Source: a virus. Taken from it: a DNA stretch of 38,409 nucleotides. A program made the translations under genes and the position numbers. Location of the stretch: IMG/VR virus record IMGVR_UViG_3300003691_000028, positions 1 to 38,409 of that record, one strand, 5' to 3'. The notes under the pieces were generated by a model that was not told the DNA's origin, made no database searches, and was given only the letters and a program-made list of their open reading frames with translations. Positions 1 through 28,887 of the stretch are shown piece by piece. The first letter of the stretch is position 1. Every line of letters begins with the position of its first letter.

Positions 1-318
1 GAATCGCTTGGTATAAACCCACATCATGGTCATAAAGCCCATACCATGTTAACCCCATTAATGAATTTATCTAAATCGGAAACAGTGCTATTGGCAAAAC
101 AATTGCCCGGATGCTGGGATGCTTTAGCATACACCCACACCAGCTATGACGGAAAATACCCACCCACGGATAAAAATCATGCAAATGTCCTCAGGGCAGA
201 GGGGTTTGAAAAAGCTGGCCTCCCAGACCCTTTAGTTTTAAGAGCTATGATGGAAGGGCTTATGTCTATTCCCATGACCCCCAATTATGATAGGTTTAGG
301 GTATCTATGGAGGTTTAA
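1..318 (+). CDS. queC: QueC-like 7-cyano-7-deazaguanine synthase, C-terminal part (5' end outside window)
   Basis: The frame is open from base 1, so this is the last ~105 residues of a longer protein. The stretch '[20 protein letters not shown]' matches the 'PLM-L-KaEt--LA' segment of QueC, and the tail '[14 protein letters not shown]' matches the QueC C-terminus. QueC converts 7-carboxy-7-deazaguanine to preQ0 with ATP and ammonia. In true QueC the segment between these blocks holds four zinc cysteines (TCY...CGxCxxC.LR). Here the aligned segment reads [19 protein letters not shown], so all four are replaced by S, T, N and N. Either the enzyme works without zinc or it is a relative such as the Gat-QueC amidotransferases of archaeosine synthesis; the missing N-terminus would decide. 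It is the first visible gene of a 7-deazaguanine DNA modification cluster. The family is secure, the exact activity is not. Confidence 0.85.
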
Positions 319-319
319 T

Positions 320-718
320 ATGGACGTTTTTACTCATGGGGTTGCAGGAGCAGTCACCGGATCTGCTTTCGGGAGACCTGTGTTAGGTGCTTTTATTGCA
401 ATCTCTCCTGATATTGTTTTGATTGGGAAACGAAAACAATACCCAACTCGATCTTATTTATTTTTGCACAGTTTCTTTTTTATTATTTCAAGTTGGTTTA
501 TTGTAAATATTTATGATAAAGATTTAGGCTTGTTATTTTTTTATTGCCTACTATCCCATTTAATTCTGGACTTGTTAACACATGGAAAAACTTGGGCTCC
601 TTGCGTATATTGGCCAATGAAATTAAGGCCAATATACTGGCGGGAGTGGGAATTTTTTAACCTTCCTTGGTTTTATGGCCTTGGTTTAACCTCAATATGG
701 TGTGGATTATGGTTGTAA
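320..718 (+). CDS. Small membrane protein of the DUF457/YdjM-like metal-dependent hydrolase family
   Basis: 132 residues starting at the ATG behind GGAGGT, two bases after the QueC-like stop. The pattern fits the membrane-bound hydrolase-like family (DUF457, E. coli YdjM/YbcI). It has H6 in 'FTHG', D31 in 'SPD', H50, and H80-D84-H88 in 'LSHLILDLLTHG', all possible metal ligands set among hydrophobic segments at about 10-30, 48-64, 68-86 and 115-132. It therefore probably sits in the host inner membrane. No substrate is known for the family. Its place between queC and queF-like genes is unexpected for a membrane protein, and its stop overlaps the next gene. A role in the modification pathway is only inferred from position. 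Confidence 0.6.
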   Translation: MDVFTHGVAGAVTGSAFGRPVLGAFIAISPDIVLIGKRKQYPTRSYLFLHSFFFIISSWFIVNIYDKDLGLLFFYCLLSHLILDLLTHGKTWAPCVYWPMKLRPIYWREWEFFNLPWFYGLGLTSIWCGLWL

Positions 719-984
719 CAATTAGACACTGGGTGCCTATAATCACATTCTGCCCCCATAATAACCTCCCTGATTTTATTTACATATCACTCATATATAA
801 AGACAAATTCCGGGAGCTTTATAGCATCAGAAAACGAATTCGTTCCTTAATTTCAGGAAGAAAACTTTTCATGGAGGATATTGCCAAAGAGGTAAGTAGT
901 GAATTCACAGGTGCTGATTCTGTTGAAGTTCGTTTATTATTTAATAGACATATTGTTAAAATACAAAGGGGGAATGATGTATAA
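709..984 (+). CDS. queF-L: QueF-like (QueF-L type) preQ0-modifying enzyme, single short T-fold domain
   Basis: 91 residues from the ATG that overlaps the upstream stop. Upstream in-frame starts at 667 and 697 exist but lie inside the previous gene. The sequence aligns with the unimodular QueF core. 'TFCPHNNLPDF' corresponds to the QueF 'CPvTGqPDf' box, with C15 (thioimide nucleophile) and D22 seven residues apart as in Bacillus QueF. 'FMED' with E56 corresponds to 'FHE', and 'FNRHIVKI' to the final beta strand. The NADPH motif E-(S/L)-K-(S/A)-h-K reads ELYSIR, so both lysines are lost. In crenarchaeal QueF-L, which lacks this motif, the enzyme adds ammonia to the preQ0 nitrile to give archaeosine rather than reducing it. 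I infer the same amidine-forming role here. The QueD start lies inside its last codons. Confidence 0.75.
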   Translation: MVVTIRHWVPIITFCPHNNLPDFIYISLIYKDKFRELYSIRKRIRSLISGRKLFMEDIAKEVSSEFTGADSVEVRLLFNRHIVKIQRGNDV

Positions 985-1426
985 AGTCCATAGATATCAC
1001 GATATTTGTGCGGGTCATAGAGTGGTTGGTCATGAAGGTAAGTGCCGACACCTCCACGGGCACAACTACAGAGTTCATTTCACATGCCAAGCGGATCAAT
1101 TGGATAACGTTGGTCGTGTTATTGATTTTAGTGTGGTTAAAGAAAAGCTGTGTATGTGGCTTGAGGATAATTGGGACCATAAGTTTCTTCACTGGGAAAA
1201 AGACCCTGTTATTAACGCTATAAAACGAGATTTTTCACATAGCTTATTTTATAGCACAATTGAAGATTCGTTAATAAAGCTACCTTTCAATCCAACAGCG
1301 GAAAATATGGCTGAATATCTAGTTGAGACGATTGGCCCTAGTCAATTGAAAGGTACTGGTGTAAAATTAACTGAAGTTAGAATTGAAGAAACTGCCAAAT
1401 GCAGTGCTTCTTATTCCGGAGTATGA
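977..1426 (+). CDS. queD: QueD, 6-carboxy-5,6,7,8-tetrahydropterin synthase
   Basis: 149 residues. The ATG at 977 is favoured over the adjacent ATG at 974 because the GGGGGA Shine-Dalgarno has better spacing. Family marks are clear: H14 ('AGH') plus H27 and H29 ('HLHGHNY') bind zinc, C23 is the catalytic cysteine, 'WDHKFLHW' holds the Asp/His pair, 'PTAENMAEYL' is the helix motif, and 'VRIEETAKCSASY' carries the pterin-anchoring Glu. The protein is somewhat longer than E. coli QueD (about 120 residues) because of an insertion around 75-95 after the DH motif. It converts dihydroneopterin triphosphate, made by FolE next door, to 6-carboxytetrahydropterin, the second step towards preQ0. It overlaps queF-L by 8 bases, so the two are probably translationally coupled. 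Confidence 0.93.
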   Translation: MYKVHRYHDICAGHRVVGHEGKCRHLHGHNYRVHFTCQADQLDNVGRVIDFSVVKEKLCMWLEDNWDHKFLHWEKDPVINAIKRDFSHSLFYSTIEDSLIKLPFNPTAENMAEYLVETIGPSQLKGTGVKLTEVRIEETAKCSASYSGV

Positions 1427-1427
1427 A

Positions 1428-2324
1428 ATGAAAGTTATTTTAAATCACAACAACATTGAACTCTTATGTACAAGAATGAATATTCAGCTCAAGAATATAG
1501 CAAAAGTCGGGAAATTTTATAAATGTTTCCCGATTCCAAGAGGGGGGGTTCCAGCAGCTTATGCCCTATCAGGATATTACAATATTGAAATGGTAGATAG
1601 CCCGCTCGATGCTGATTTCTTTTTTGATGATATTATTGACAGTGGAGCTACGATGGAAAAGTGGTGTGATGCTTATCCTGGAAAACCCTTTTTAGCATTG
1701 ATTGATAAAACAGACCCAGAATGTTATTATTTCAATAAGTGGGTTGTGTTCCCTTGGGAGGGTACAGCAGAGTCAGGCATTGAAGAAAACATTACAAGGA
1801 TTCTCCAATGGATTGGAGAGGATGTTGATCGTGGTGGGTTGAGAGAAACACCAGCTAGGGTATCAAAAGCCCTTGGTGAATGGTTCAGCGGATACGGAAA
1901 AGACCCCAAAGAAGTATTGAAAGTATTCACAGATGGGGCGGAAGGCTATGATCAAATGATTGTGGTTAAGGACATCCCTATTTATAGCAAGTGCGAGCAC
2001 CATATGGCGGATATTTTTGGAACTGCTACAATTGCCTATATCCCGGATGGAAAAATTGTAGGGTTGTCTAAACTGTCACGTCTCGTTGATATGTTTGCCC
2101 GTAGATTACAAGTTCAGGAACGGCTCACGCAACAAATAGCAACAGCATTAAACGATAATCTCAATCCTTTAGGGGTTGGTGTGATAATCAACGCTCGCCA
2201 TATGTGCATGGAGAGTAGGGGGATTTGTCAACAAGGGCATTCAACAATGACTACAGCTTTAAAAGGGGTATTCTTAACGGACACCGATGCACGAGCAGAA
2301 TTTATATCTTTGGCTGGTCGTTGA
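1428..2324 (+). CDS. folE: Phosphoribosyltransferase-GTP cyclohydrolase I (FolE) fusion
   Basis: 298 residues from the ATG behind CCGGAG, one base after the queD stop. Residues 1-110 form a small phosphoribosyltransferase-like domain: 'PIPRGGVPAAYAL' (35-47) and the PRPP loop 'FFDDIIDSGAT' (65-75). Residues ~115-298 are a complete GTP cyclohydrolase I, with 'CEHH' (C189, H192) and C260 in 'MCMESRG' as zinc ligands, the 'QVQERLTQQIA' helix and 'CQQGHSTMTT'. FolE turns GTP into dihydroneopterin triphosphate, the entry step of 7-deazaguanine synthesis. What the N-terminal domain does is open. It could channel or salvage a base or nucleotide, or regulate the enzyme. Its sequence is short for a full phosphoribosyltransferase but the PRPP motif is intact. 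Confidence 0.92.
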   Translation: MKVILNHNNIELLCTRMNIQLKNIAKVGKFYKCFPIPRGGVPAAYALSGYYNIEMVDSPLDADFFFDDIIDSGATMEKWCDAYPGKPFLALIDKTDPECYYFNKWVVFPWEGTAESGIEENITRILQWIGEDVDRGGLRETPARVSKALGEWFSGYGKDPKEVLKVFTDGAEGYDQMIVVKDIPIYSKCEHHMADIFGTATIAYIPDGKIVGLSKLSRLVDMFARRLQVQERLTQQIATALNDNLNPLGVGVIINARHMCMESRGICQQGHSTMTTALKGVFLTDTDARAEFISLAGR

Positions 2325-3242
2325 ATGAACATTTACATGGCAGCAGTGCATTCTAACGGGTATAAGCACACCAATCGCTATGCTAAGTTAAATGAAGTTG
2401 AAAAGGCTGCTGTCCATAATTTACCACATTTATTAGAGTCCTATCACTACATTCATAAACCCGCTTTTGTACAGGCAATACGACAAAATGAAGACAAGAT
2501 TTTTTTAGATTCCGGAGCGTTTTCAGCTTATACATTAGGCGTAGACTTAAACCTAGAGGATTATTGTACTTATATTAAAACAAATGAAGACATAATCCTC
2601 AAAGAAGATGGCATATTGATGGCGTCGGTTCTTGACGGTATTGGAGACCCATTAATAACATATCAAAATCAACTTGCAATGGAAGGGTATGGTGTGAAAC
2701 CTTTACCGTGTTTTCATGCAGGAGAGGACGAAAAATATCTAGAATGGTATGTGCAAAATTATGAATATATTACTTTGGGCGGTATGGTTGGGTCGAGCAG
2801 TAAACAATTGATAATTTGGCTTGACAGAATGTGGGATAAGTATCTAACTGATGGTAGCGGAAATCCAAGACTCAAAGTTCATGGTTTTGGTATTACAGCC
2901 ATTCCAATCATGGAGCGGTATCCGTGGTGGAGTTGTGACTCATCATCGTGGATTCAAAGTGCTGCATTTGGATCAGTAATTACCCCTCAATATGGCCCAC
3001 TTTCAGTTTCTGATAAATCACCTTCACGCCATGTAGCAGGGCAGCATGTTGAAACCTTTACTGAGATAGAAAATAAAAAAATACATGAACTTTTTCATTC
3101 CCAAGGATACGATTATACAAGGCTCTCCACTGTTTACGAGTCACGTGCTGTGTATAATCTATGGGCTTTTGGGGAGATTAATAAGCAGATGGATCTTTGT
3201 AATGTTCAGGATTTTCAGTCTGCACAACCGGAGTTGTTTTAA
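2325..3242 (+). CDS. dpdA: DpdA, DNA-guanine transglycosylase (TGT family)
   Basis: 305 residues starting directly after the folE stop. It belongs to the TGT superfamily in its phage DpdA form. 'FLDSGAFSAYT' (60-70, D62) matches the substrate-binding Asp box of TGT (TDSGGFQ). 'LDGIGD' and 'CFHAGE' follow, 'YITLGGMVG' corresponds to the TGT Gly-rich base-recognition loop, and D205 in 'WWSCDSSSW' sits where the TGT nucleophilic Asp lies. The C-terminal CxCxxC zinc site of tRNA enzymes is absent and the protein is short (TGT ~375). DpdA swaps guanine in DNA for a 7-deazaguanine base such as preQ0, giving restriction-resistant phage DNA. Neighbouring genes supply the base. The stop overlaps the clamp start (TAATG). 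Confidence 0.9.
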   Translation: MNIYMAAVHSNGYKHTNRYAKLNEVEKAAVHNLPHLLESYHYIHKPAFVQAIRQNEDKIFLDSGAFSAYTLGVDLNLEDYCTYIKTNEDIILKEDGILMASVLDGIGDPLITYQNQLAMEGYGVKPLPCFHAGEDEKYLEWYVQNYEYITLGGMVGSSSKQLIIWLDRMWDKYLTDGSGNPRLKVHGFGITAIPIMERYPWWSCDSSSWIQSAAFGSVITPQYGPLSVSDKSPSRHVAGQHVETFTEIENKKIHELFHSQGYDYTRLSTVYESRAVYNLWAFGEINKQMDLCNVQDFQSAQPELF

Positions 3243-4195
3243 TGTTGGATGAATTAAAATTTGTTCAAGGTGCCGTGTCCAAGAAAAACTTTCTACCTGC
3301 TTTGACCCATTTTAGAATTGAGGCTGGTAATATTCGGAGTTTCAACGGAACACTTGCACTTAGTTCGCCAATCAAATTAGACATTGATTGCACCCCAAAA
3401 GCTGACCCATTTATAAAAGCTATTCAAAAATGTACCGAAACTGTATCCATGAGCTTAACAAAAGCCGGGCGGTTGCGTATTCAATCTGGGACGTTTAAAG
3501 TTTTCATCAACTGCACAGAGGAAGAAACCCACCACGTTGAACCAGAAGGCGAGTTACATGATATTGACGGTGAAGTATTTTTAAAAGCAATCAAGACAAT
3601 TGCCCCCTTCATTGGAATCGACGCTTCCCGACCTTGGTCCAATGGTATATTATTAAAAGGTCAAAGCGCATACGCAACTAATAATGTATCGCTGGTTGAA
3701 TATTGGGTTGGAAATAGTTTTCCTGTCATCTGTAACATTCCAAAATCTGCAATAGTTGAAATAATACGAATTAACAAACCGCCAACAAAAGTCCAAATTT
3801 CAAACAAAAGCATATCTTTCCTATATGAGGATGATAAATGGATAAGGACATCACTTTTGGATATTTGTTGGCCGGATTTAGATAAGATTTTAAACACACC
3901 CTCCAACCCAGTGCCAATAGATGAACGCATTTTCGAAGGGCTGGAGAGTATAAAACCTTTCGTGGATAAATTAGGCAGAGTTTATATTCAAAATGAAACT
4001 ATTTGTACTAGCATTATTGAAGGTGAAGGTGCGACTTACGAAATACCCGATTTTAAAAGCGAAGGTGCATATCAATTAGGTATCCTGAACCTCCTCAAAA
4101 ATACTGCCACAAAAATTGATTTTTCAACCTATCCAAAACCCTGTTTATTTTTCGGTGAACGATTGAGGGGCGCAATTATAGGTATGCGTACATGA
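3242..4195 (+). CDS. DNA polymerase sliding clamp, beta-clamp-like
   Basis: 317 residues. The N-terminus 'LKFVQGAVSKKNFLPALTHFRIEAGNIRSFNGTLAL' (written in pieces: LKFVQGAVSKKNF, LPALTHFRIE, IRSFNGTLAL) has the DnaN pattern of 'v..av..knt.PiL....i...g.i...DgtlaI'. Beta-rich repeats follow, and the C-terminus 'CLFFGERLRGAIIGMRT' resembles the end of DnaN, where the last strand reports on the third domain. It is shorter than bacterial DnaN (about 366). The role is to tether the polymerase encoded by the next gene, whose ATG overlaps the stop (ATGA), fitting a co-expressed replisome pair. No catalytic motifs are expected in this family, so the call rests on overall pattern and context. Confidence 0.7.
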   Translation: MLDELKFVQGAVSKKNFLPALTHFRIEAGNIRSFNGTLALSSPIKLDIDCTPKADPFIKAIQKCTETVSMSLTKAGRLRIQSGTFKVFINCTEEETHHVEPEGELHDIDGEVFLKAIKTIAPFIGIDASRPWSNGILLKGQSAYATNNVSLVEYWVGNSFPVICNIPKSAIVEIIRINKPPTKVQISNKSISFLYEDDKWIRTSLLDICWPDLDKILNTPSNPVPIDERIFEGLESIKPFVDKLGRVYIQNETICTSIIEGEGATYEIPDFKSEGAYQLGILNLLKNTATKIDFSTYPKPCLFFGERLRGAIIGMRT

Positions 4196-6366
4196 GGTCG
4201 GACGCTGTTGGGATGTTTTGGGAGGAAGTTGATTATAAAACAGATAAAAAACAGACATTGTTAATTGAAGAAGGTTGGACTGAAGTAATCTCAGGTTTCT
4301 GGGCCGAACAATATTTATTGGATAATGGTGCAGATGTCCGTGAAGTATCCAGCACATTGGATAATGCCTATTTAACTGCCCGTGCAAGCAAGACAGGTGC
4401 AAAAAGAACCCCACCTGAACCTGTATGGCTACATCCGGATTATCTTCCGGGCTTGGACGAAGCTAGAGCCTTTAACGTCCCGTTATTTTCAGAAGAAGAA
4501 CTCCTCCAAGCAGCAGTTGAGGTTTTTACAAAAGGGGTTCGCCACAAACTTATTTTCGACATTGAGTGTTATGGTAATTATTTCCTAATTGCCTTTATTT
4601 CACTAGACCTCGGCAAAGTTGTTTATTTGGAACTCAGTGATGATTCTGAGTTAGATTGTGGGAAACTAAAATGGATATTTGAGAATTTTTGTGTCATAGG
4701 TTTTAACTCAAATAACTACGATATCTGGATAGCTTCAATGGCTGTCCATGGGTGCTCCACAGCAGCTATGAAATCTGTCACAGCTGGTATTATTGAATAT
4801 GGAGAAAAGGGGTGGCATTTATTAAGAAGGCACAAGGTAAAGAAATTAAAAACTGACCACATTGATTTGATAGAAGTGGCTCCGTTATTTGCTTCCCTCA
4901 AAATTTATGGTGGGCGTATGCACACCAAGCAAATGCAGGACCTACCTTTCCCGCCCGGAACTGTTTTATCAGAACCCCAGAGAGCAATTATAAAATGGTA
5001 CTGTGTAAAAGATCTGAGGGTTACATTAGAGCTATACCGGAAAGTAATTAAAGAAATTGTATTGCGGGAAGAGATGGGTCATCAATACGGGGTTGATTTA
5101 CGTTCAAAATCAGATGCTCAAATTGCAGAGGTTGTCATCGGGCAAGAGGTTGAAAAACTAAACGGATACAGACCTTTCAAGCCAGAAATAGAACCTGGCA
5201 CATGCTATTATTATCAAGTACCTGAGTTCATTAATTTCCAAACCCCTCTAATGAACAATCTTGTCAACATAATCAAGAAGACGCCATTTGTGGTGTCTGA
5301 GTTTGGAAATGTTGGCTTGCCACAAGAGCTTAAATCCCAAGTTATTAGAATAAACCAAACTGACTACAAATTGGGGATTGGAGGGCTGCATAGCGTCGAT
5401 AAAAATATGTCTCATTATGCAGATAAGAACACTATTTTAAAAGACGTAGATGCGACTTCCTACTATCCTTTTATAATTCTACTCTTAGGACTATACCCTA
5501 AACACCTTGGCCCTAATTTCCTTACTGTTTTTCGTACCCTAGTTGAAAGACGTGTCAGGGCAAAGGTGGCAAAAAATAAAACAGCAGCAGATACAATTAA
5601 AATTGTGGTCAACGGATCGTTTGGTAAATTGGGCAGCGTGTTTTCTATTTTATATGCACCTGATTTGTTAATCCAAGTGACAATTACGGGCCAACTTTCT
5701 TTACTGCTTCTTATTGAATCGTTGGAACTTGCTAATATACCTGTCGTCAGTGCCAATACAGATGGAATTGTTATCAAATGTCCCAAACATCTTGAATCAA
5801 CTATGGATGTAATTATTAAGCAATGGGAGATCAATACAGGGTTTTCAACAGAGGAAAGTTTATATGCAGCATTGTTCAGCAGGGATGTTAATAACTACCT
5901 CGCTATAAAAGATCCTAGTTGCTGGAAGGAGGGGGATACCACGGATGATAAGGTGAAAACAAAGGGTATTTTTGCAAAGCCCGGACTATCCAAAAACCCA
6001 CAAAATGAAATCTGTATTGTTGCCATCAAGGAACTTTTAATTAATGGTATTGCAATAGAAGAGACAATTCGAAATTGTAAAGACATTACAAAATTTGTCA
6101 ATGTACGAACAGTAAAAGGTGGGGCGGTTAAATTGCATAATAATGAAGGGACGAACGGGCTCTTTCTAGGTAAGGCAATTAGATGGTATTATGCTAAAAA
6201 CATCGCTGGTGAAATTGTTTATGCTACAACAGGTAATAAGGTTCCCAAAACTGAAGGGGCCCAACCTCTCATGGATCTTCCAGGCACATTCCCACAAGAC
6301 GTTGATTATAATTGGTATGAAAAAGAAAGCTTCAAAATATTAAAACAAATCAGTTATTCTAATTAA
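4192..6366 (+). CDS. Family B-type DNA polymerase with 3'-5' exonuclease
   Basis: 724 residues. The exonuclease domain shows Exo I 'IFDIECYGNYF' (D123, E125), Exo II 'GFNSNNYDIWI' (D177) and Exo III 'YCVKDLRVTLELY' (Y270, D274), a DEDDy set for proofreading. The polymerase domain shows motif A 'DVDATSYYPF' (D418), motif B 'KIVVNGSFGKLGS' (~470-482) and motif C 'SANTDGIVIK' (D524). In motif C the usual DTDS is NTDG: the first Asp is Asn and the second, catalytic, Asp is kept. Residues 1-110 have no recognisable motif. The protein is compact for family B, with short palm and thumb segments. It replicates the phage genome, probably with the clamp encoded just upstream. The ATG at 4192 overlaps the clamp stop; a second ATG at 4213 is possible. 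Confidence 0.9.
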   Translation: MRSDAVGMFWEEVDYKTDKKQTLLIEEGWTEVISGFWAEQYLLDNGADVREVSSTLDNAYLTARASKTGAKRTPPEPVWLHPDYLPGLDEARAFNVPLFSEEELLQAAVEVFTKGVRHKLIFDIECYGNYFLIAFISLDLGKVVYLELSDDSELDCGKLKWIFENFCVIGFNSNNYDIWIASMAVHGCSTAAMKSVTAGIIEYGEKGWHLLRRHKVKKLKTDHIDLIEVAPLFASLKIYGGRMHTKQMQDLPFPPGTVLSEPQRAIIKWYCVKDLRVTLELYRKVIKEIVLREEMGHQYGVDLRSKSDAQIAEVVIGQEVEKLNGYRPFKPEIEPGTCYYYQVPEFINFQTPLMNNLVNIIKKTPFVVSEFGNVGLPQELKSQVIRINQTDYKLGIGGLHSVDKNMSHYADKNTILKDVDATSYYPFIILLLGLYPKHLGPNFLTVFRTLVERRVRAKVAKNKTAADTIKIVVNGSFGKLGSVFSILYAPDLLIQVTITGQLSLLLLIESLELANIPVVSANTDGIVIKCPKHLESTMDVIIKQWEINTGFSTEESLYAALFSRDVNNYLAIKDPSCWKEGDTTDDKVKTKGIFAKPGLSKNPQNEICIVAIKELLINGIAIEETIRNCKDITKFVNVRTVKGGAVKLHNNEGTNGLFLGKAIRWYYAKNIAGEIVYATTGNKVPKTEGAQPLMDLPGTFPQDVDYNWYEKESFKILKQISYSN

Positions 6367-7945: not shown

Positions 7946-8560
7946 TTTCTCAATATATTTCCCAATAGCATGATATTTTGAACAGGACAGTTTAAGGTGG
8001 CTGTATTTCTCCCCCAATTGAATCCTTCTTCCAGGATGTCTATAACCCGAATATCTGGTCGGGACAGCAGTTACAATATCAGAGCCATTGCGATAATCCC
8101 TAAAAATAATACAGGGATATTTTTTATGAGAGAAGAACATCACAACCCGTGGCGCCCCGAACGTAACACACTGCTCAACATCGTAGCCTTCAGCAATTAG
8201 CAACTGAGCAAGGATTGGCGCTTCCCCACCACCCTTAGAATGCCCTGTGATAAAAACAGCCTTTGTTTTATCTAAATAAGGAATGATATGTGGCAGTGCT
8301 TTTCGTACAGTTTTCAAATATCCAGGATGAACCCAACCTGTTCTTTTATCATACCAAGGGGGCAAGTGCCTAATGTTATTGATCCAGTCCAACCAGCCCC
8401 CTTCAGCTATTAGATTTTTACTCTCAGTTCCCCTATGAGCAATGATTTGATAATCTGTGAACTGACGAATCAAGATTTCAACTTCACCACTCACAACAGT
8501 TTCACATTCGTAAGCTAATTCGCAATATGCTGCTAAATCTTTATCTGATGGATATTCCAT
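7940..8560 (-). CDS. Class 3 lipase-like alpha/beta hydrolase
   Basis: 206 residues. The nucleophile elbow is 'ITGHSKGGG' with S108. The expected acid is D161 in 'RNGSDIVTAVP', matching the lipase class 3 'DPV..lP' segment, and the base is H197 in 'KYHAIGKYIEKL' (the C-terminal H....Y of the family). 'IIAHRGTES' is the typical oxyanion-side strand and 'CVTFGAPRV' the TFGxPRV motif. No signal peptide. It is the last gene of the tail-tip operon and its start overlaps the adhesin stop, so it is likely made late. It may act in lysis, on outer membrane lipid, or as a tail-associated esterase. Fold and family are firm; the substrate is not known. Confidence 0.85.
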   Translation of the reverse strand: MEYPSDKDLAAYCELAYECETVVSGEVEILIRQFTDYQIIAHRGTESKNLIAEGGWLDWINNIRHLPPWYDKRTGWVHPGYLKTVRKALPHIIPYLDKTKAVFITGHSKGGGEAPILAQLLIAEGYDVEQCVTFGAPRVVMFFSHKKYPCIIFRDYRNGSDIVTAVPTRYSGYRHPGRRIQLGEKYSHLKLSCSKYHAIGKYIEKL

Positions 8561-10215
8561 TATGAGCCCTCATTAAATAAGGCAGTTCTTGCAGTAGCAT
8601 CCAGTGCAACATCATAAACCTTCATTTGATCCACTGCACAATGAGCGTACTCAGTTCCGTGATTAAATCCCAATCGGCCTATTGCTGCTGATCTAACCAT
8701 AGTGCCAGTAGACAAGGCCACTATTGGCGTTGTTGCCACTTCAACATCATCCAAGAATATTTTTGCATTAACCCCATCACCCCACCAAATAATATGATGT
8801 GAGATTGTGTCTGTTATGATTGCATCAGCAGACCCAAGATCTGTAACAGACCCTCCCCCTCCCCCATTGCTTAAATATAAACGCAACCGCCTATCAAAAT
8901 TCTGATCATCAAAAAGGAAGTTGAAGCATTTCACAGAGGCACTTCGATCATTGCCTAAAATGTCATGCTCATTGGTATCATTCGGGTTATTAAAAGTCAC
9001 ATGGGCTGAGACTGTGAATATGCCCGTGTTGATAATAAAGCTGTAATCAACGTCAGTTCCTGGAAGATTTATATAATCCCCAACCCCATCCAATTGAATC
9101 ATTGAGCCAACTTGACCAGCTGGGAAAGTGGGTGTTCCCCCAATGGTTCCAATTCTACCATTTACCTCACTATATAGATCAGTAGAAACGCCACCAGCTC
9201 TAGCATCCATGCTATATGAATCAACAAGGTCCAAAACATTTATTCTAGTGTCCATATCACCAACAAATGCTGCTGCTGTAATCTGCAAAGCCTCTTCATC
9301 TGTTATTGATCCATTTATATAAGTTAATCGGTGACCGTGTTTTGGCCACATGGTTCCGGCGGCTGCATAGGCAGAAGCGTATACCCCAAACTTCCCATTC
9401 CAGTTTCTGTTTACAGGGCTACCAGTTTGAGTGGACAGGGTTTGTGGCACTCCATCAAACCACATTTTTGACGCTGCATAATTATTAACAGTCACTTCTG
9501 TAATTATGCAATGCCACTTATCATCCCCAATCGCAGCAGCAGCTCCTGCTATCCCATACACACTAGCTCCCCCTCCTGCCCCAAGCCCGAAGCTGTCTGT
9601 TGTGTTGTCATGCCACAGAAAAATTCGATTGGTTACATCATCCCCCAATCCCCACAAAACACCATCAGCAGCAGCGTCAAATTTCATCATAGCAATAACA
9701 GTCACAACCCCACCTGTGATATCCAAGGCAGTTGTGGGTCTGGAGTACGCGTTGTTTGCAAGCACACCGTTAGATTCTTGATCAGGAACTGATTGTAGGT
9801 AAGTTGGGGTTCCTGTTACAGGAGCATTAACAGCGCCAATTGTATCTAACCAAGTTCCAGAAGCCTCATCCATTTCCCACAAATGCAAAGCGCCTAAATT
9901 TGCAGCTAATGTAGCATAGGAAAGAAACCCGCCAACTACTAACGTCCCAGTCAGCCAATCATGGAATATGCTATCAAGCTCAACAGCCCCATCATCATCC
10001 ACAGCCCCGATCAAAACCCTCCCAGCCCAATTTTCAGTCGCAGGTGTTGCTTCATCACCCCATTCAAGAGTGAATGTCCCATCAGCTGCTGCCTGTGTTT
10101 CATCCAGCACAGTAAACACCGGACTCCCTGCGAGATTAACTTTTACAGCAATCAAGTGATTAGTGTGGTTCGCTCCCAGTTGCTGAGTTGTGTTTGTATA
10201 GCGATATAAAGTCAT
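8560..10215 (-). CDS. LamG/concanavalin-like tail adhesin
   Basis: 551 residues. Two regions look like laminin-G/concanavalin A lectin domains. The first covers about 105-310 ('LHLWEMDEASGTWLDTIG', 'WHCIITEVTVN', 'KMWFDGVPQTL'). The second covers about 335-548 ('MIQLDGVGDYINLPG', 'FTVSAHVTFNN', 'KIFLDDVEVATTP', 'DQMKVYDVALDATARTALF'). The last motif is the standard end of such domains. The N-terminal ~95 residues are a separate beta-rich part that may anchor to the tail tip. It follows the gpJ-like gene with an ATGA overlap, the usual place for a receptor-binding protein. The target glycan is unknown. Confidence 0.75.
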   Translation of the reverse strand: MTLYRYTNTTQQLGANHTNHLIAVKVNLAGSPVFTVLDETQAAADGTFTLEWGDEATPATENWAGRVLIGAVDDDGAVELDSIFHDWLTGTLVVGGFLSYATLAANLGALHLWEMDEASGTWLDTIGAVNAPVTGTPTYLQSVPDQESNGVLANNAYSRPTTALDITGGVVTVIAMMKFDAAADGVLWGLGDDVTNRIFLWHDNTTDSFGLGAGGGASVYGIAGAAAAIGDDKWHCIITEVTVNNYAASKMWFDGVPQTLSTQTGSPVNRNWNGKFGVYASAYAAAGTMWPKHGHRLTYINGSITDEEALQITAAAFVGDMDTRINVLDLVDSYSMDARAGGVSTDLYSEVNGRIGTIGGTPTFPAGQVGSMIQLDGVGDYINLPGTDVDYSFIINTGIFTVSAHVTFNNPNDTNEHDILGNDRSASVKCFNFLFDDQNFDRRLRLYLSNGGGGGSVTDLGSADAIITDTISHHIIWWGDGVNAKIFLDDVEVATTPIVALSTGTMVRSAAIGRLGFNHGTEYAHCAVDQMKVYDVALDATARTALFNEGS

Positions 10216-25206: not shown

Positions 25207-25389
25207 TTATCCACACAAATCATCATCTAAAGAAACAACCAAATCACCTTCTAAGCTGACTACAGTTTCATCAAAAATTTGGATTTCAATTGGGGCGCCT
25301 GTCTGCGTAATAGATAAAAAATGATTTCTCGCTGAATCAGGGGAGGGTAATTGACTAAGCTCAAGCATTCTTTCTCTAGCAGTTGGCAT
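25207..25389 (-). CDS. Small hypothetical protein, 60 residues
   Basis: Not recognised. It starts on the TAATG that ends the 641-residue protein. The N-terminal helix 'ARERMLELSQLPSPDSARNH' is followed by 'GAPIEIQIFDETVVSLEGDL' and the repeated strand pair VVSLEGDL / VVSLDDDL. This small repeat could dock on the neighbouring beta-rich proteins. Coupled to both neighbours by short gaps. Confidence 0.5.
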   Translation of the reverse strand: MPTARERMLELSQLPSPDSARNHFLSITQTGAPIEIQIFDETVVSLEGDLVVSLDDDLCG

Positions 25390-27314
25390 TACAGCACCTC
25401 ATCCCAAACTTGTTCTTTTGCTAGTCCTGTTGTATCAACAACTGTTCCAGCTGAGTTATTAATTACTTTACCATTCCCTGATACTTTTATCACCCCATCA
25501 ATACAGCTAGCATCTATTGTCACTGTGCCTCCGGTCATTGCAATTCGCATATCATGTAAAGCTGAATCAAACCCCTTTAGAACCAAATCGCCAGAAAAAT
25601 TATCCAATATTGATCTATGAAGAGCACCTGTTGGCATGATCAACGCAGGTGCTGGGAGTCCTGGCACGTGAGCAGGGGCGAGATTGGTGAATAAACTGGC
25701 ATTATTTGCAGCGAGCGTGACCTCCCCTGTAATATTGATATCAACGTGACCACCAAGAACACCTGACAACCCATGTTCAAAGCCACCGACTATCAAACTC
25801 CAAAAATTAGGACTATTTGATACACCTTTCAATATGACTTGTTCAAAAGATGTCCCTGAGACATCTTGCCCATTGAGATCAATTGCGGACAATCCAAGCC
25901 CATCAATTTTAAAATTCTTTACATTCCTGTCTAATGTTGCATCTGCCAAAAACACTATTTGACGAATTTTATTAAGTTCAGCAAAGTCCAGACCGCCACC
26001 TATTGTATTAAAAGGAGTACGGGCAGATCCATCCCCTGCTGCGATTTGTTCAGTGTCTATGAACACTGTTTGGGCTTGATATTTGACTAAATTCGCGTTG
26101 GTGTTCAGGTCGTCATAGTCAAGCGTCATTCCTCCAGTGTTTGTTACTGAAAAATGACCTCTTAAAAAAATTGTGCCTGATGAGCTGGCTGCAACTATTA
26201 GCTTTCCTTGCCCCTCGTGAGTGATTGTGTGAGTCCCACCCCCAGCATTTGCATTTCTATACTCCATACCCCCTGAATAGTGGCGATTAGATAGGGTCTT
26301 AACCTCAGCTGCAAGCTGAAAATCAATTGACGGTGTACCAGAGCCAGCCACTTCAGAATAACATTGATCCATAATGGAATCGCCTGGTTCTTGGTGGACA
26401 ATATCACCCCTAAGACCGCACCCATGGAGATGGTGCTGTCCTATCGTATTTGACCCCATTGAACAGCCAATATATTGTGTTGCTACAATGTTTGCTCCAG
26501 AGTCATTGCCATCAACAATAGCATTCTGGAATAAAGTACCATCTACACTCTGACCTCCTAGAGCGATAGTGTAGCTGAATCCGTCAAATTCAAAACCAGC
26601 AACACTTGAAGGCAAAGTAATACTTGATCCAGGCAGGAGTCTGAATCCAGGTAATTGAACAGAAGCTCTGATAATTAGAGCGTCTGCAATATTGCTGACT
26701 GGGTTATTTACAGTTCCATTTTCAAAATCAACAGTGCCAGGGGTTCCGTTGATTGTGTCGATCCAAACATGGCCCCCTTCATAAACCCCAAAATCTTGCA
26801 ATGTTCTCAACCTTCGCCCGGCAGAACTCGCAATGTTATGAGTTGCGCCAGTCAATGGTCTGTCCCAAGTGGCTTTGGCAATCTCAATCATTCCTGTTGC
26901 TGTTGAAGCAATGGCATCTAACCCTGTAGCAGCGAGAGAAAAACCTGTTTTTCCTGAAACATCTCCTCCAGAGGTTACACCCAAAGTATTACCTGAAGTA
27001 ACAGTCCTACGATAAAGTTCTATTGTCCGATCAACAGGAGCCATATCTGCTTGAGTAATGTGAAATATCATCTCCTCAGAGTCATTCCCAGCAGCTATCG
27101 TCATATCCTCATCCAAAAGTAGTTTATATACTCCCGGCATGTTGATAGCATCAACCTCTGTGATTGTGGGTGTGGTCATAACTGTGGAAGCGCCACCATC
27201 CCTTGATCGATAGACTGTAAATGCTGTCAGTCCTGTTTCTCTTGTTTTTAAGTCTGTAGCATCAACAGCAATGAAATACATCACCTGATCTACAATACCA
27301 CTTGGTATTCTCAC
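25389..27314 (-). CDS. Large virion fibre / decoration-like protein with duplicated beta module
   Basis: 641 residues from a GTG start within GTGA. The first ~120 residues ('VMYFIAVDATDLKTRETGLT', 'FTVYRSRDGGAST', 'ITEVDAINMPGVYKLLLDED') are a domain seen in many phage structural proteins and probably anchor it to the particle. The rest is beta-rich and built from a repeated unit: 'HVWIDTINGTPGT' near residue 185 and 'TVFIDTEQIAAGDGSARTPF' near 405, each followed by 'fDGfsytIaLgGqsvdGT' / 'IDGLGLSAIDLNGQDVSGT'. This suggests parallel beta-helix or stacked repeats. Its place between capsid and connectors points to a head or neck fibre rather than a tail fibre. Confidence 0.6.
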   Translation of the reverse strand: MRIPSGIVDQVMYFIAVDATDLKTRETGLTAFTVYRSRDGGASTVMTTPTITEVDAINMPGVYKLLLDEDMTIAAGNDSEEMIFHITQADMAPVDRTIELYRRTVTSGNTLGVTSGGDVSGKTGFSLAATGLDAIASTATGMIEIAKATWDRPLTGATHNIASSAGRRLRTLQDFGVYEGGHVWIDTINGTPGTVDFENGTVNNPVSNIADALIIRASVQLPGFRLLPGSSITLPSSVAGFEFDGFSYTIALGGQSVDGTLFQNAIVDGNDSGANIVATQYIGCSMGSNTIGQHHLHGCGLRGDIVHQEPGDSIMDQCYSEVAGSGTPSIDFQLAAEVKTLSNRHYSGGMEYRNANAGGGTHTITHEGQGKLIVAASSSGTIFLRGHFSVTNTGGMTLDYDDLNTNANLVKYQAQTVFIDTEQIAAGDGSARTPFNTIGGGLDFAELNKIRQIVFLADATLDRNVKNFKIDGLGLSAIDLNGQDVSGTSFEQVILKGVSNSPNFWSLIVGGFEHGLSGVLGGHVDINITGEVTLAANNASLFTNLAPAHVPGLPAPALIMPTGALHRSILDNFSGDLVLKGFDSALHDMRIAMTGGTVTIDASCIDGVIKVSGNGKVINNSAGTVVDTTGLAKEQVWDEVL

Positions 27315-27511
27315 TGTAAGATGCCCCCTAGTCCTGCTGCATGTTGCGCACCAAACCCTCTATCCAATGATTGAGCTGGGTTGAATATGTCGTCTGGGGC
27401 AGGAGGTGCTGAGACAACTTCTTGCACAATACCCAGTCCTGGAATCAGTAATTGATCTCCACTGCCTGAGTCTGTAAACAACCCGCCTCCTGGAATTAAC
27501 AATTCAGACAT
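27311..27511 (-). CDS. Small Gly/Pro-rich virion-associated protein, 66 residues
   Basis: Not recognised. The ATG overlaps the upstream stop (TAATG) behind GAGGTT. The sequence is low in charge and Gly-rich, with a repeated LLIPG motif ('ELLIPGGGLF' and 'QLLIPGLGIV'). It is wedged between two large fibre-like genes, so it may be an adaptor, but no direct evidence exists. Confidence 0.5.
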   Translation of the reverse strand: MSELLIPGGGLFTDSGSGDQLLIPGLGIVQEVVSAPPAPDDIFNPAQSLDRGFGAQHAAGLGGILQ

Positions 27512-28887
27512 TATGCAACCTCAATTTTTGGACAAGCGTAAATTGTAGTTGAAGGCTTTGCTAAACAGGCCCACACTGTCACCGCTGCATTGTCTGCCCC
27601 TGTAATAGCTGATATTGTGTGAGACGCTTTTCGATGATCTGCGCCGCCTGCGTCTCCTGTCCAAGTCTCAGCGGATGCAGGTAGATTAGCTGGTGTATCC
27701 AGTAGTCCTATTCGAGTCTGTACAAATTGCCCAAGCGCAAGGTCAGTTGAATCAGGATGTTCCACTTCCAACCAAAATTCATCATCCTGAAGAACTGTTC
27801 CAGCGTCTTGGGCAATGTGAGCAGTGAGCGTTTTTGCAGAAGTTAAGTCCAGCCTCAGCTCTGCTATCTTGAAGCGCAGAGGCTGGAGACCCTCAACTAC
27901 AGATGTGGTCGATGTCATTTTTACGCTGTAACCATTAGTCCCATCATACGTTCCACCATTGTCCCTATATATAGCAGTGCTCTCTTCTGCTATACCTTCT
28001 GCACTGGCTTCCTGAAAAGAGTAGTATGTATCTCCATTACCAAATCCATGAATTTTAAAGGGAGCTTCTATGCTTGACTGAAAATCAGACCCTGCAATCA
28101 TAGTGAATGTTGCAGGGGTTTTTATTCGTTTCAACTCAAAGTGACAACCAGCTTTATTTATATGTTTAAAAAGCTGTTGGCCAGAGGTCATTGCTGAACA
28201 GTCAAAATCAGCAACATCAAGCCTCGCAGATCCATCCCCCACTGCATAGCAGCCAAACATTACCCCATTGCTGTGACCTAAAGCACCTACAAGCCCTCCC
28301 CCTCTTATCATGAGGCGTATGCCTGGCTCAAAGTAAATTGCGGAAGTGGTAGAGCTGTCGATCTTACAAGTCACATTTGTATTCAATAGAGTGACAGAGT
28401 TGTATTTGTTAACGCTATTGAACCCACCGAGCCTCCAACTTGACGCTGTGGCTGTGCTAACGCTATTAAACCAGCATTCCTCTGCAATTATTATAGTATC
28501 TGATGTAGCATCTGGCCGCAGAAGGACATTGGATGCCCCTTCTGCGTAGAATTCAATGCCATAAAGATAAAACATTCCAGAAAGTTTGTCTGCTGTTGTT
28601 GAGAACTGGAATTTTGGGTGAATTGGACTGTCTTTTGTGACAAGGGTTGTGGGCGGTTCAGGATCACCTGTATCATCAACTGCATAGCAGCGGATGATAT
28701 TGCCTATAGTGCTAGATCCCCCTGTAATTGTACCAGTGAACCCCTCTGCATGGCCTTTTGCAATGTAAACAGTGCCACCATTCCCAGCAGCAGACAGCGC
28801 AGAAGCCCAAGTTGCTTTGGCCAGTGCCCAAGTCAATCCACTATCAGCATCATTCCCATCCGCTGCACGTAAATACACGACAGCCAT
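27511..28887 (-). CDS. Beta-helix-like virion protein, 458 residues
   Basis: The start 'VYLRAADGNDADSGLTWALA' followed by 'ATWASALSAAGNGGTVYIAK' is the common opening of right-handed beta-helix (pectate-lyase-like) proteins: a short 'G.D..dG.sw..A' strand, then a helix and first coil 'g.tvyi..G'. Short repeating strands ('FYLYGIEFYAEGASNVLL', 'CKIDSSTTSAIYFEPGIRLM') go on to about residue 270. The remaining part is a globular beta domain ('RFKIAELRLDLTSAKTLTAH', 'FWLEVEHPDSTD'). It could bind or degrade a surface sugar. Catalytic residues are not evident, so I do not call it an enzyme. Confidence 0.6.
   Translation of the reverse strand: MAVVYLRAADGNDADSGLTWALAKATWASALSAAGNGGTVYIAKGHAEGFTGTITGGSSTIGNIIRCYAVDDTGDPEPPTTLVTKDSPIHPKFQFSTTADKLSGMFYLYGIEFYAEGASNVLLRPDATSDTIIIAEECWFNSVSTATASSWRLGGFNSVNKYNSVTLLNTNVTCKIDSSTTSAIYFEPGIRLMIRGGGLVGALGHSNGVMFGCYAVGDGSARLDVADFDCSAMTSGQQLFKHINKAGCHFELKRIKTPATFTMIAGSDFQSSIEAPFKIHGFGNGDTYYSFQEASAEGIAEESTAIYRDNGGTYDGTNGYSVKMTSTTSVVEGLQPLRFKIAELRLDLTSAKTLTAHIAQDAGTVLQDDEFWLEVEHPDSTDLALGQFVQTRIGLLDTPANLPASAETWTGDAGGADHRKASHTISAITGADNAAVTVWACLAKPSTTIYACPKIEVA

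Follow-up and report, generated by a model that had tools for sequence, protein, structure and literature searches.

A DUF457 membrane protein accompanies QueF-L in a phage DNA-modification operon that probably installs 2'-deoxyarchaeosine

Background

The virus record IMGVR_UViG_3300003691_000028, a single contig of 38,409 bases that was analysed over its whole length (the window), begins with six genes for 7-deazaguanine metabolism within positions 1-3242, and these raise the question of which modified base the phage places in its DNA. The answer depends on one small protein, here called QueF-L. If it is an archaeosine-synthase-like QueF-L, the product would be 2'-deoxyarchaeosine (dG+), and if it is a nitrile reductase like QueF, it would be 2'-deoxy-7-aminomethyl-7-deazaguanine (dPreQ1). 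A survey of 7-deazaguanine phages left undecided whether phage QueF-like proteins are amidine makers or reductases. In our reading the phage is a Queuovirinae-like siphophage, and the cluster is probably a DpdA-type operon for 7-deazaguanine modification of its DNA, most likely installing dG+.

The cluster type itself has already been published. For Sphingomonas phage vB_StuS_MMDA13, the 2020 description reports a QueC without a class II glutamine amidotransferase (Gat) domain together with a separate QueF-L, and predicts archaeosine (PMC7472734). An archaeosine-type base had also been proposed for the window in a first-pass annotation; because the MMDA13 arrangement was already in print, that idea was right in kind and not new. 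What is new here is the linkage of QueF-L to a membrane protein of the DUF457 family, and the recurrent exchange between QueF-L and Gat-QueC.

Results and discussion

Gene content of the modification cluster

The cluster lies on the plus strand in the order QueC tail, DUF457, QueF-L, QueD, PRT-FolE and DpdA, followed by genes for a clamp and a polymerase. Profile or BLAST searches identify five of the six modification genes and fold comparison identifies the sixth, QueF-L, so that the identities previously read from motifs are upheld. All six frames described in the first-pass annotation as overlapping are in place, but not every pair overlaps: QueC and DUF457 are 1 base apart, as are QueD and FolE, FolE and DpdA abut, and overlaps of about 10 bases join DUF457 to QueF-L and QueF-L to QueD. 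DpdA (2325-3242, 305 aa) is a preQ0-DNA transglycosylase of the phage 9g type (phrog_887, E = 6.7e-83), with 74% identity to the protein of Alteromonas phage vB_AcoS-R7M and 61% to that of 9g. It adjoins the genes for synthesis of preQ0 (7-cyano-7-deazaguanine), namely QueC, the 6-carboxytetrahydropterin synthase QueD (977-1426, start codon ATG at 974 or 977; PF01242, E = 2.5e-29; phrog_2389, E = 8.9e-54) and FolE, which is fused to a phosphoribosyltransferase (PRT) domain (1428-2324).

The identity of the QueC-like protein is confirmed (Pfam QueC, E = 3.5e-5; phrog_1550, E = 6e-10), but only its C-terminal 105 codons are present (1-318), and the ATP-binding half and any N-terminal Gat domain lie outside the view. 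This tail is 67% identical to the QueC of MMDA13 and 59% to that of HD01, and finds no real match among Gat-QueC tails. It appears to belong to the Gat-less phage type and has none of the zinc-binding cysteines found in canonical QueC. Matches to this cysteine-less variant occur in 45 phage records. A Gat-QueC identity, which would render QueF-L redundant and was hinted at by a PHROG model, is improbable because the tail falls among QueCs that have no Gat. In L008, the closest metagenomic relative, the same DUF457-QueF-L pair is present and the flanking genes are 54-78% identical to those of the window, yet the QueC is a canonical, cysteine-bearing one (4912-5622). Because its QueC differs while the flanks match, queC is exchanged independently, and because the pair is kept beside another QueC, the type of QueC is not what binds the pair.

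QueE is absent within the window, as previously noted, and the left contig end cuts the cluster. The gene stands directly before QueC in all 14 distinct QueF-L relatives in which the upstream gene is visible, and it is expected just beyond the window's left end. Relatives with the same QueE-to-polymerase order are Queuovirinae and their kin, with genomes of 55-64 kb, which suggests that the window represents about two thirds of a genome.

QueF-L and the predicted product

The queF-L gene (709-984) encodes 91 amino acids from an ATG at 709; the overlapping upstream starts, TTG at 667 and ATG at 697, are less likely. The protein shares 49% identity with the one annotated as QueF-L in MMDA13, and the nucleophilic Cys, acidic Asp and substrate-binding Glu (C15, D22 and E56) are invariant in 15 family sequences. 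Because HHpred calls of QueF-L in phages Dp-1 and HVTV-1 had proved wrong, the NADPH motif was compared between those phages and this family. In the alignment, the motif E(S/L)KSLK is present in B. subtilis QueF and in the proteins of Dp-1 (VESKSLKLYL) and HVTV-1 (VELKSLKYYL), with IELKSLKYYL at this site in phiSM, and it is lost in all QueF-L family members, where ELYxxRKxxR or a sequence close to it stands instead, in the window as in its relatives. The absence of the motif from the window's protein, recognised in the first-pass annotation, is therefore a property of the whole family. The C-terminal PRGG/RGG segment of QueF follows the same pattern, being kept by Dp-1, HVTV-1 and phiSM and absent in all QueF-L family members.

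A predicted structure of QueF-L (pLDDT 82) was searched against solved structures. The best match was the archaeosine synthase QueF-Like of Pyrobaculum calidifontis (5k0p, Z = 12.6, root-mean-square deviation 2.8 Å, 89 residues aligned; second-ranked 5jyx, Z = 12.4, 2.6 Å, 89 residues), followed by GTP cyclohydrolase at Z = 11.2 or less and QueF (4f8b) at Z = 10.0. Searches of MMDA13 QueF-L against the PDB with phmmer, and Pfam scans of QueF-L members, gave nothing useful. Like the phage protein, the archaeal enzyme is a T-fold protein of about 100 amino acids with a catalytic Cys/Asp/Glu set and no NADPH motif; it converts preQ0-tRNA to G+ with NH4+ only, and so acts on preQ0 in tRNA, not in DNA (PMC5485725). 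The motif loss and the archaeal fold match, together with the exchange described below, support the earlier proposal that the product would be dG+, and, among phage QueF-L proteins, single out this family as the clearest candidate for one that truly makes archaeosine. Since the isolated phage MMDA13 carries such a protein, a direct assay is possible.

Exchange with Gat-QueC

To correct the association between DUF457 and QueF-L for kinship, we constructed a tree of DpdA from 32 clusters, 12 with QueF-L and 20 without it (10 with Gat-QueC and 10 with neither). A single QueF-L clade is rejected on this tree (approximately unbiased test, p-AU = 6.6e-8), and no fewer than 5 changes are needed to account for its supported branches. 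The neighbouring loci L010 and L023, one of which has Gat and the other DUF457 and QueF-L, are 82% identical in DpdA, 88% in FolE and 67% in QueE, and only 28% in QueC. Neighbouring clusters thus differ mainly in the block that lies between QueE and QueD, and this block is exchanged as a unit. Gat-QueC and DpdA of 9g have been proven to make dG+ in DNA (PMC6884629), and since the cassette repeatedly replaces Gat-QueC in the same operon, the same product is the simplest reading.

The known systems fit on either side of this exchange. In MMDA13 seven genes (gp30-gp36) run QueE, Gat-less QueC, DUF457, QueF-L, QueD, PRT-FolE, DpdA, which is the arrangement of the window together with its expected QueE, although the proteins have diverged, with 39% identity in DUF457 and the 49% and 67% given above for QueF-L and the QueC tail. 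Its DUF457 protein, gp34, is labelled "hypothetical", and neither DUF457 nor the PRT domain is described in the accessible part of that paper (PMC7472734). Enterobacteria phage 9g (Nonagvirus, Queuovirinae) shares the succession QueD, FolE, DpdA, clamp and polymerase and has QueE where it is expected here, and the same product is predicted, but it has a Gat-QueC fusion instead of QueC, DUF457 and QueF-L, and a FolE without PRT. R7M (Amoyvirus, Queuovirinae), the closest isolated phage overall, likewise has Gat-QueC, no QueF-L or DUF457, and a FolE without PRT. The genome scan found only one locus, L037 (PBAL01000089.1; 55,901 bases), in a Verrucomicrobiales metagenome-assembled genome; it matches an IMG/VR contig of equal size and gene layout and is therefore probably a mis-binned phage of this type, not a bacterial gene.

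In two clusters without Gat or QueF-L, queC and queD are separated by 0.7-1.2 kb of other sequence (L018, 3740-4485; L020, 3143-4309), and phage CAjan has a putative preQ0 transporter at that position.

DUF457 as a companion of QueF-L

The gene before queF-L (320-718) encodes a putative integral membrane protein of 132 amino acids. Its match to the DUF457/YdjM family PF04307 (E = 6.7e-6, 26.2 bits) falls just below the curated cut-off of 29, and all seven DUF457 family members that were searched match the same profile (best E = 2e-10). Hydropathy fits a membrane protein, the predicted model is helical (pLDDT 75), and metal-hydrolase-type residues are conserved (D2, H6, PD31, H50, SH80, D84 and TH88), with the His and Asp residues invariant. 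Fold matches to urea transporters, at Z of about 3, were too weak to count as evidence.

Single-sequence searches of viral contigs returned one relative for QueF-L and none for DUF457, so deeper alignments were needed, and alignment-based scans were run with QueF-L as the anchor and, in a separate set, with DUF457. Besides the window these gave about 15 distinct QueF-L contigs, MMDA13 included. DUF457 directly precedes QueF-L in every one, often overlapping it, and none of the QueF-L clusters found has a Gat domain; an additional contig with DUF457 breaks off within that gene. Among the clusters of the DpdA tree, DUF457 is present in 12 of 12 with QueF-L and 0 of 20 without it (Fisher's exact p = 4e-9, without kinship correction), and it accompanied QueF-L in all 5 independent contrasts on the tree. 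DUF457 is an obligate companion of QueF-L and a hitherto unrecognised part of its module, a relationship missed in the first-pass annotation, which had identified the membrane protein.

We know of no DUF457 partner of the crenarchaeal QueF-Like protein, and a literature search found no papers tying DUF457 to phage DNA modification. The linkage provides the first candidate partner for QueF-L and the first functional handle on such DUF457 proteins. Gat takes ammonia from glutamine, the archaeal QueF-L uses only free NH4+, and a partner generating NH4+ was explicitly not excluded by its discoverers (PMC5485725), so that supplying ammonia is a natural role to propose for DUF457. Just as conceivable are recruitment of QueF-L to the membrane and action on the QueF-L product; since no solved structure resembles DUF457, its role is a guess.

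Alternative readings

Several results weigh against dG+ as the product of this operon. QueE and most of QueC lie beyond the contig end. On a model of pLDDT 82 the archaeosine synthase leads other T-fold enzymes by only 1.2 Z, a modest margin because T-fold enzymes all resemble each other, and the phage protein shares about 18% sequence identity with its archaeal counterpart. B. subtilis QueF outscored archaeal QueF-L in a profile search with one phage row of the QueF type among its sequences. The solved-structure search gave no fold relative of DUF457, and a sign test on independent pairs gives p = 0.0625 with 5 supported pairs, a number with which p = 0.05 is out of reach. No nucleoside analysis of MMDA13 or of another member of this type was found in the literature. 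Further, the Dp-1 and HVTV-1 proteins, of the same T-fold family and likewise within phage preQ0 clusters, were called QueF-L by HHpred, and the DNA of these phages carries dPreQ1 by mass spectrometry (PMC6884629). QueF-L could thus be a nitrile reductase in the window as well, in line with the T-fold and the Cys/Asp/Glu set that it shares with QueF and with weak matches to QueF-II (E = 0.03-0.04 with a single-sequence profile). However, Dp-1 and HVTV-1 keep the NADPH and PRGG motifs that all members of this family lack, QueF scores 2.6 Z below the best fold match, and the module trades places with Gat-QueC, which makes an amidine. On this evidence dPreQ1 is very improbable.

It is also conceivable that QueF-L and DUF457 make another 7-deazaguanine, through attack of water or an amine on the thioimide or through processing by DUF457, which would yield 2'-deoxy-7-amido-7-deazaguanine (dADG) or a substituted amidine. 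dADG is known in phages (PMC6884629). DUF457 keeps strictly to QueF-L, with no such tie to DpdA or to the synthesis of preQ0, and may therefore act at or after the QueF-L step, and its conserved His/Asp set is hydrolase-like. Further 7-deazaguanines were reportedly found in phages by Cui et al. in 2023. On the other hand, exchange with Gat-QueC suggests an equivalent product, and no DUF457 protein is known to us to act on nucleosides, so that a product of this kind seems unlikely. We give hardly any weight to a cluster that does not function in DNA modification, either because it has decayed or because it serves to raise host preQ0 or queuosine. QueE and the N-terminus of QueC are hidden beyond the contig end, but the frames are all intact and tightly packed, catalytic residues are conserved across lineages at 40-60% identity, the order QueE-QueC-DUF457-QueF-L is intact in 14 relatives, and DpdA is required for modification in CAjan (PMC6884629).

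Proposed pathway and the PRT domain

For an operon that installs dG+, the reactions and their order can be inferred from established enzymology. FolE, QueD, QueC and the QueE expected beyond the contig end would make preQ0, and DpdA would swap guanine in the phage DNA for it. Cys15 of QueF-L would then bind the nitrile as a thioimide, Asp22 serving as acid/base, and attack by ammonia would give the formamidine, with DUF457 as a dedicated QueF-L partner that possibly supplies or localises the ammonia.

The first-pass annotation had left the PRT domain without a role, and one is needed. The PRT-like part of the fusion spans about 1428-1770 (phrog_8995, E = 1.1e-6) and the FolE part, a GTP cyclohydrolase I, about 1770-2324 (E = 5.3e-70). 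The former has the hallmarks of purine PRTs of the xanthine-guanine type, with a phosphoribosyl pyrophosphate loop DDIIDSGAT (DDxxDxGxT), a pyrophosphate loop PRGGVPAA (PRGG) and the base-binding elements IDK and W..FPWEG; across the family the acidic loop residues are conserved, as are Lys and Trp, and a profile built from the family finds purine PRTs in the PDB (E = 0.0035-0.08). The domain was found by tblastn in 33 phage records, with dpdA next door in all 24 that were checked, and a literature search found no papers on PRT together with DpdA. Since DpdA is expected to release guanine, this guanine could plausibly be turned back into GMP and so replenish the GTP that FolE uses, and we speculate that the PRT domain performs this recycling.

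More tentatively, and with considerable doubt, the locus as a whole might encode a two-protein archaeosine synthase in which the DUF457 membrane part, a new and obligate component, makes or channels ammonia or processes the QueF-L product, carried on a QueC-DUF457-QueF-L cassette that is functionally equivalent to Gat-QueC and swappable with it, while the PRT domain on FolE recycles the guanine released by DpdA.

Remaining genes of the contig

The right part of the window, on the minus strand, carries siphophage tail, tape measure, major head and terminase genes. Three large proteins of this structural half, also on the minus strand, have no PHROG match (8560-10215, 551 aa; 25389-27314, 641 aa; 27511-28887, 458 aa). 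On the plus strand, dpdA is followed by a DNA polymerase processivity factor, the clamp (3242-4195; phrog_947, E = 9.3e-74), which occupies the same place in relatives. A phage DNA polymerase (4192-6366; phrog_1252, E = 1.4e-201), 56% identical to that of R7M, is the last gene of the co-directional block.

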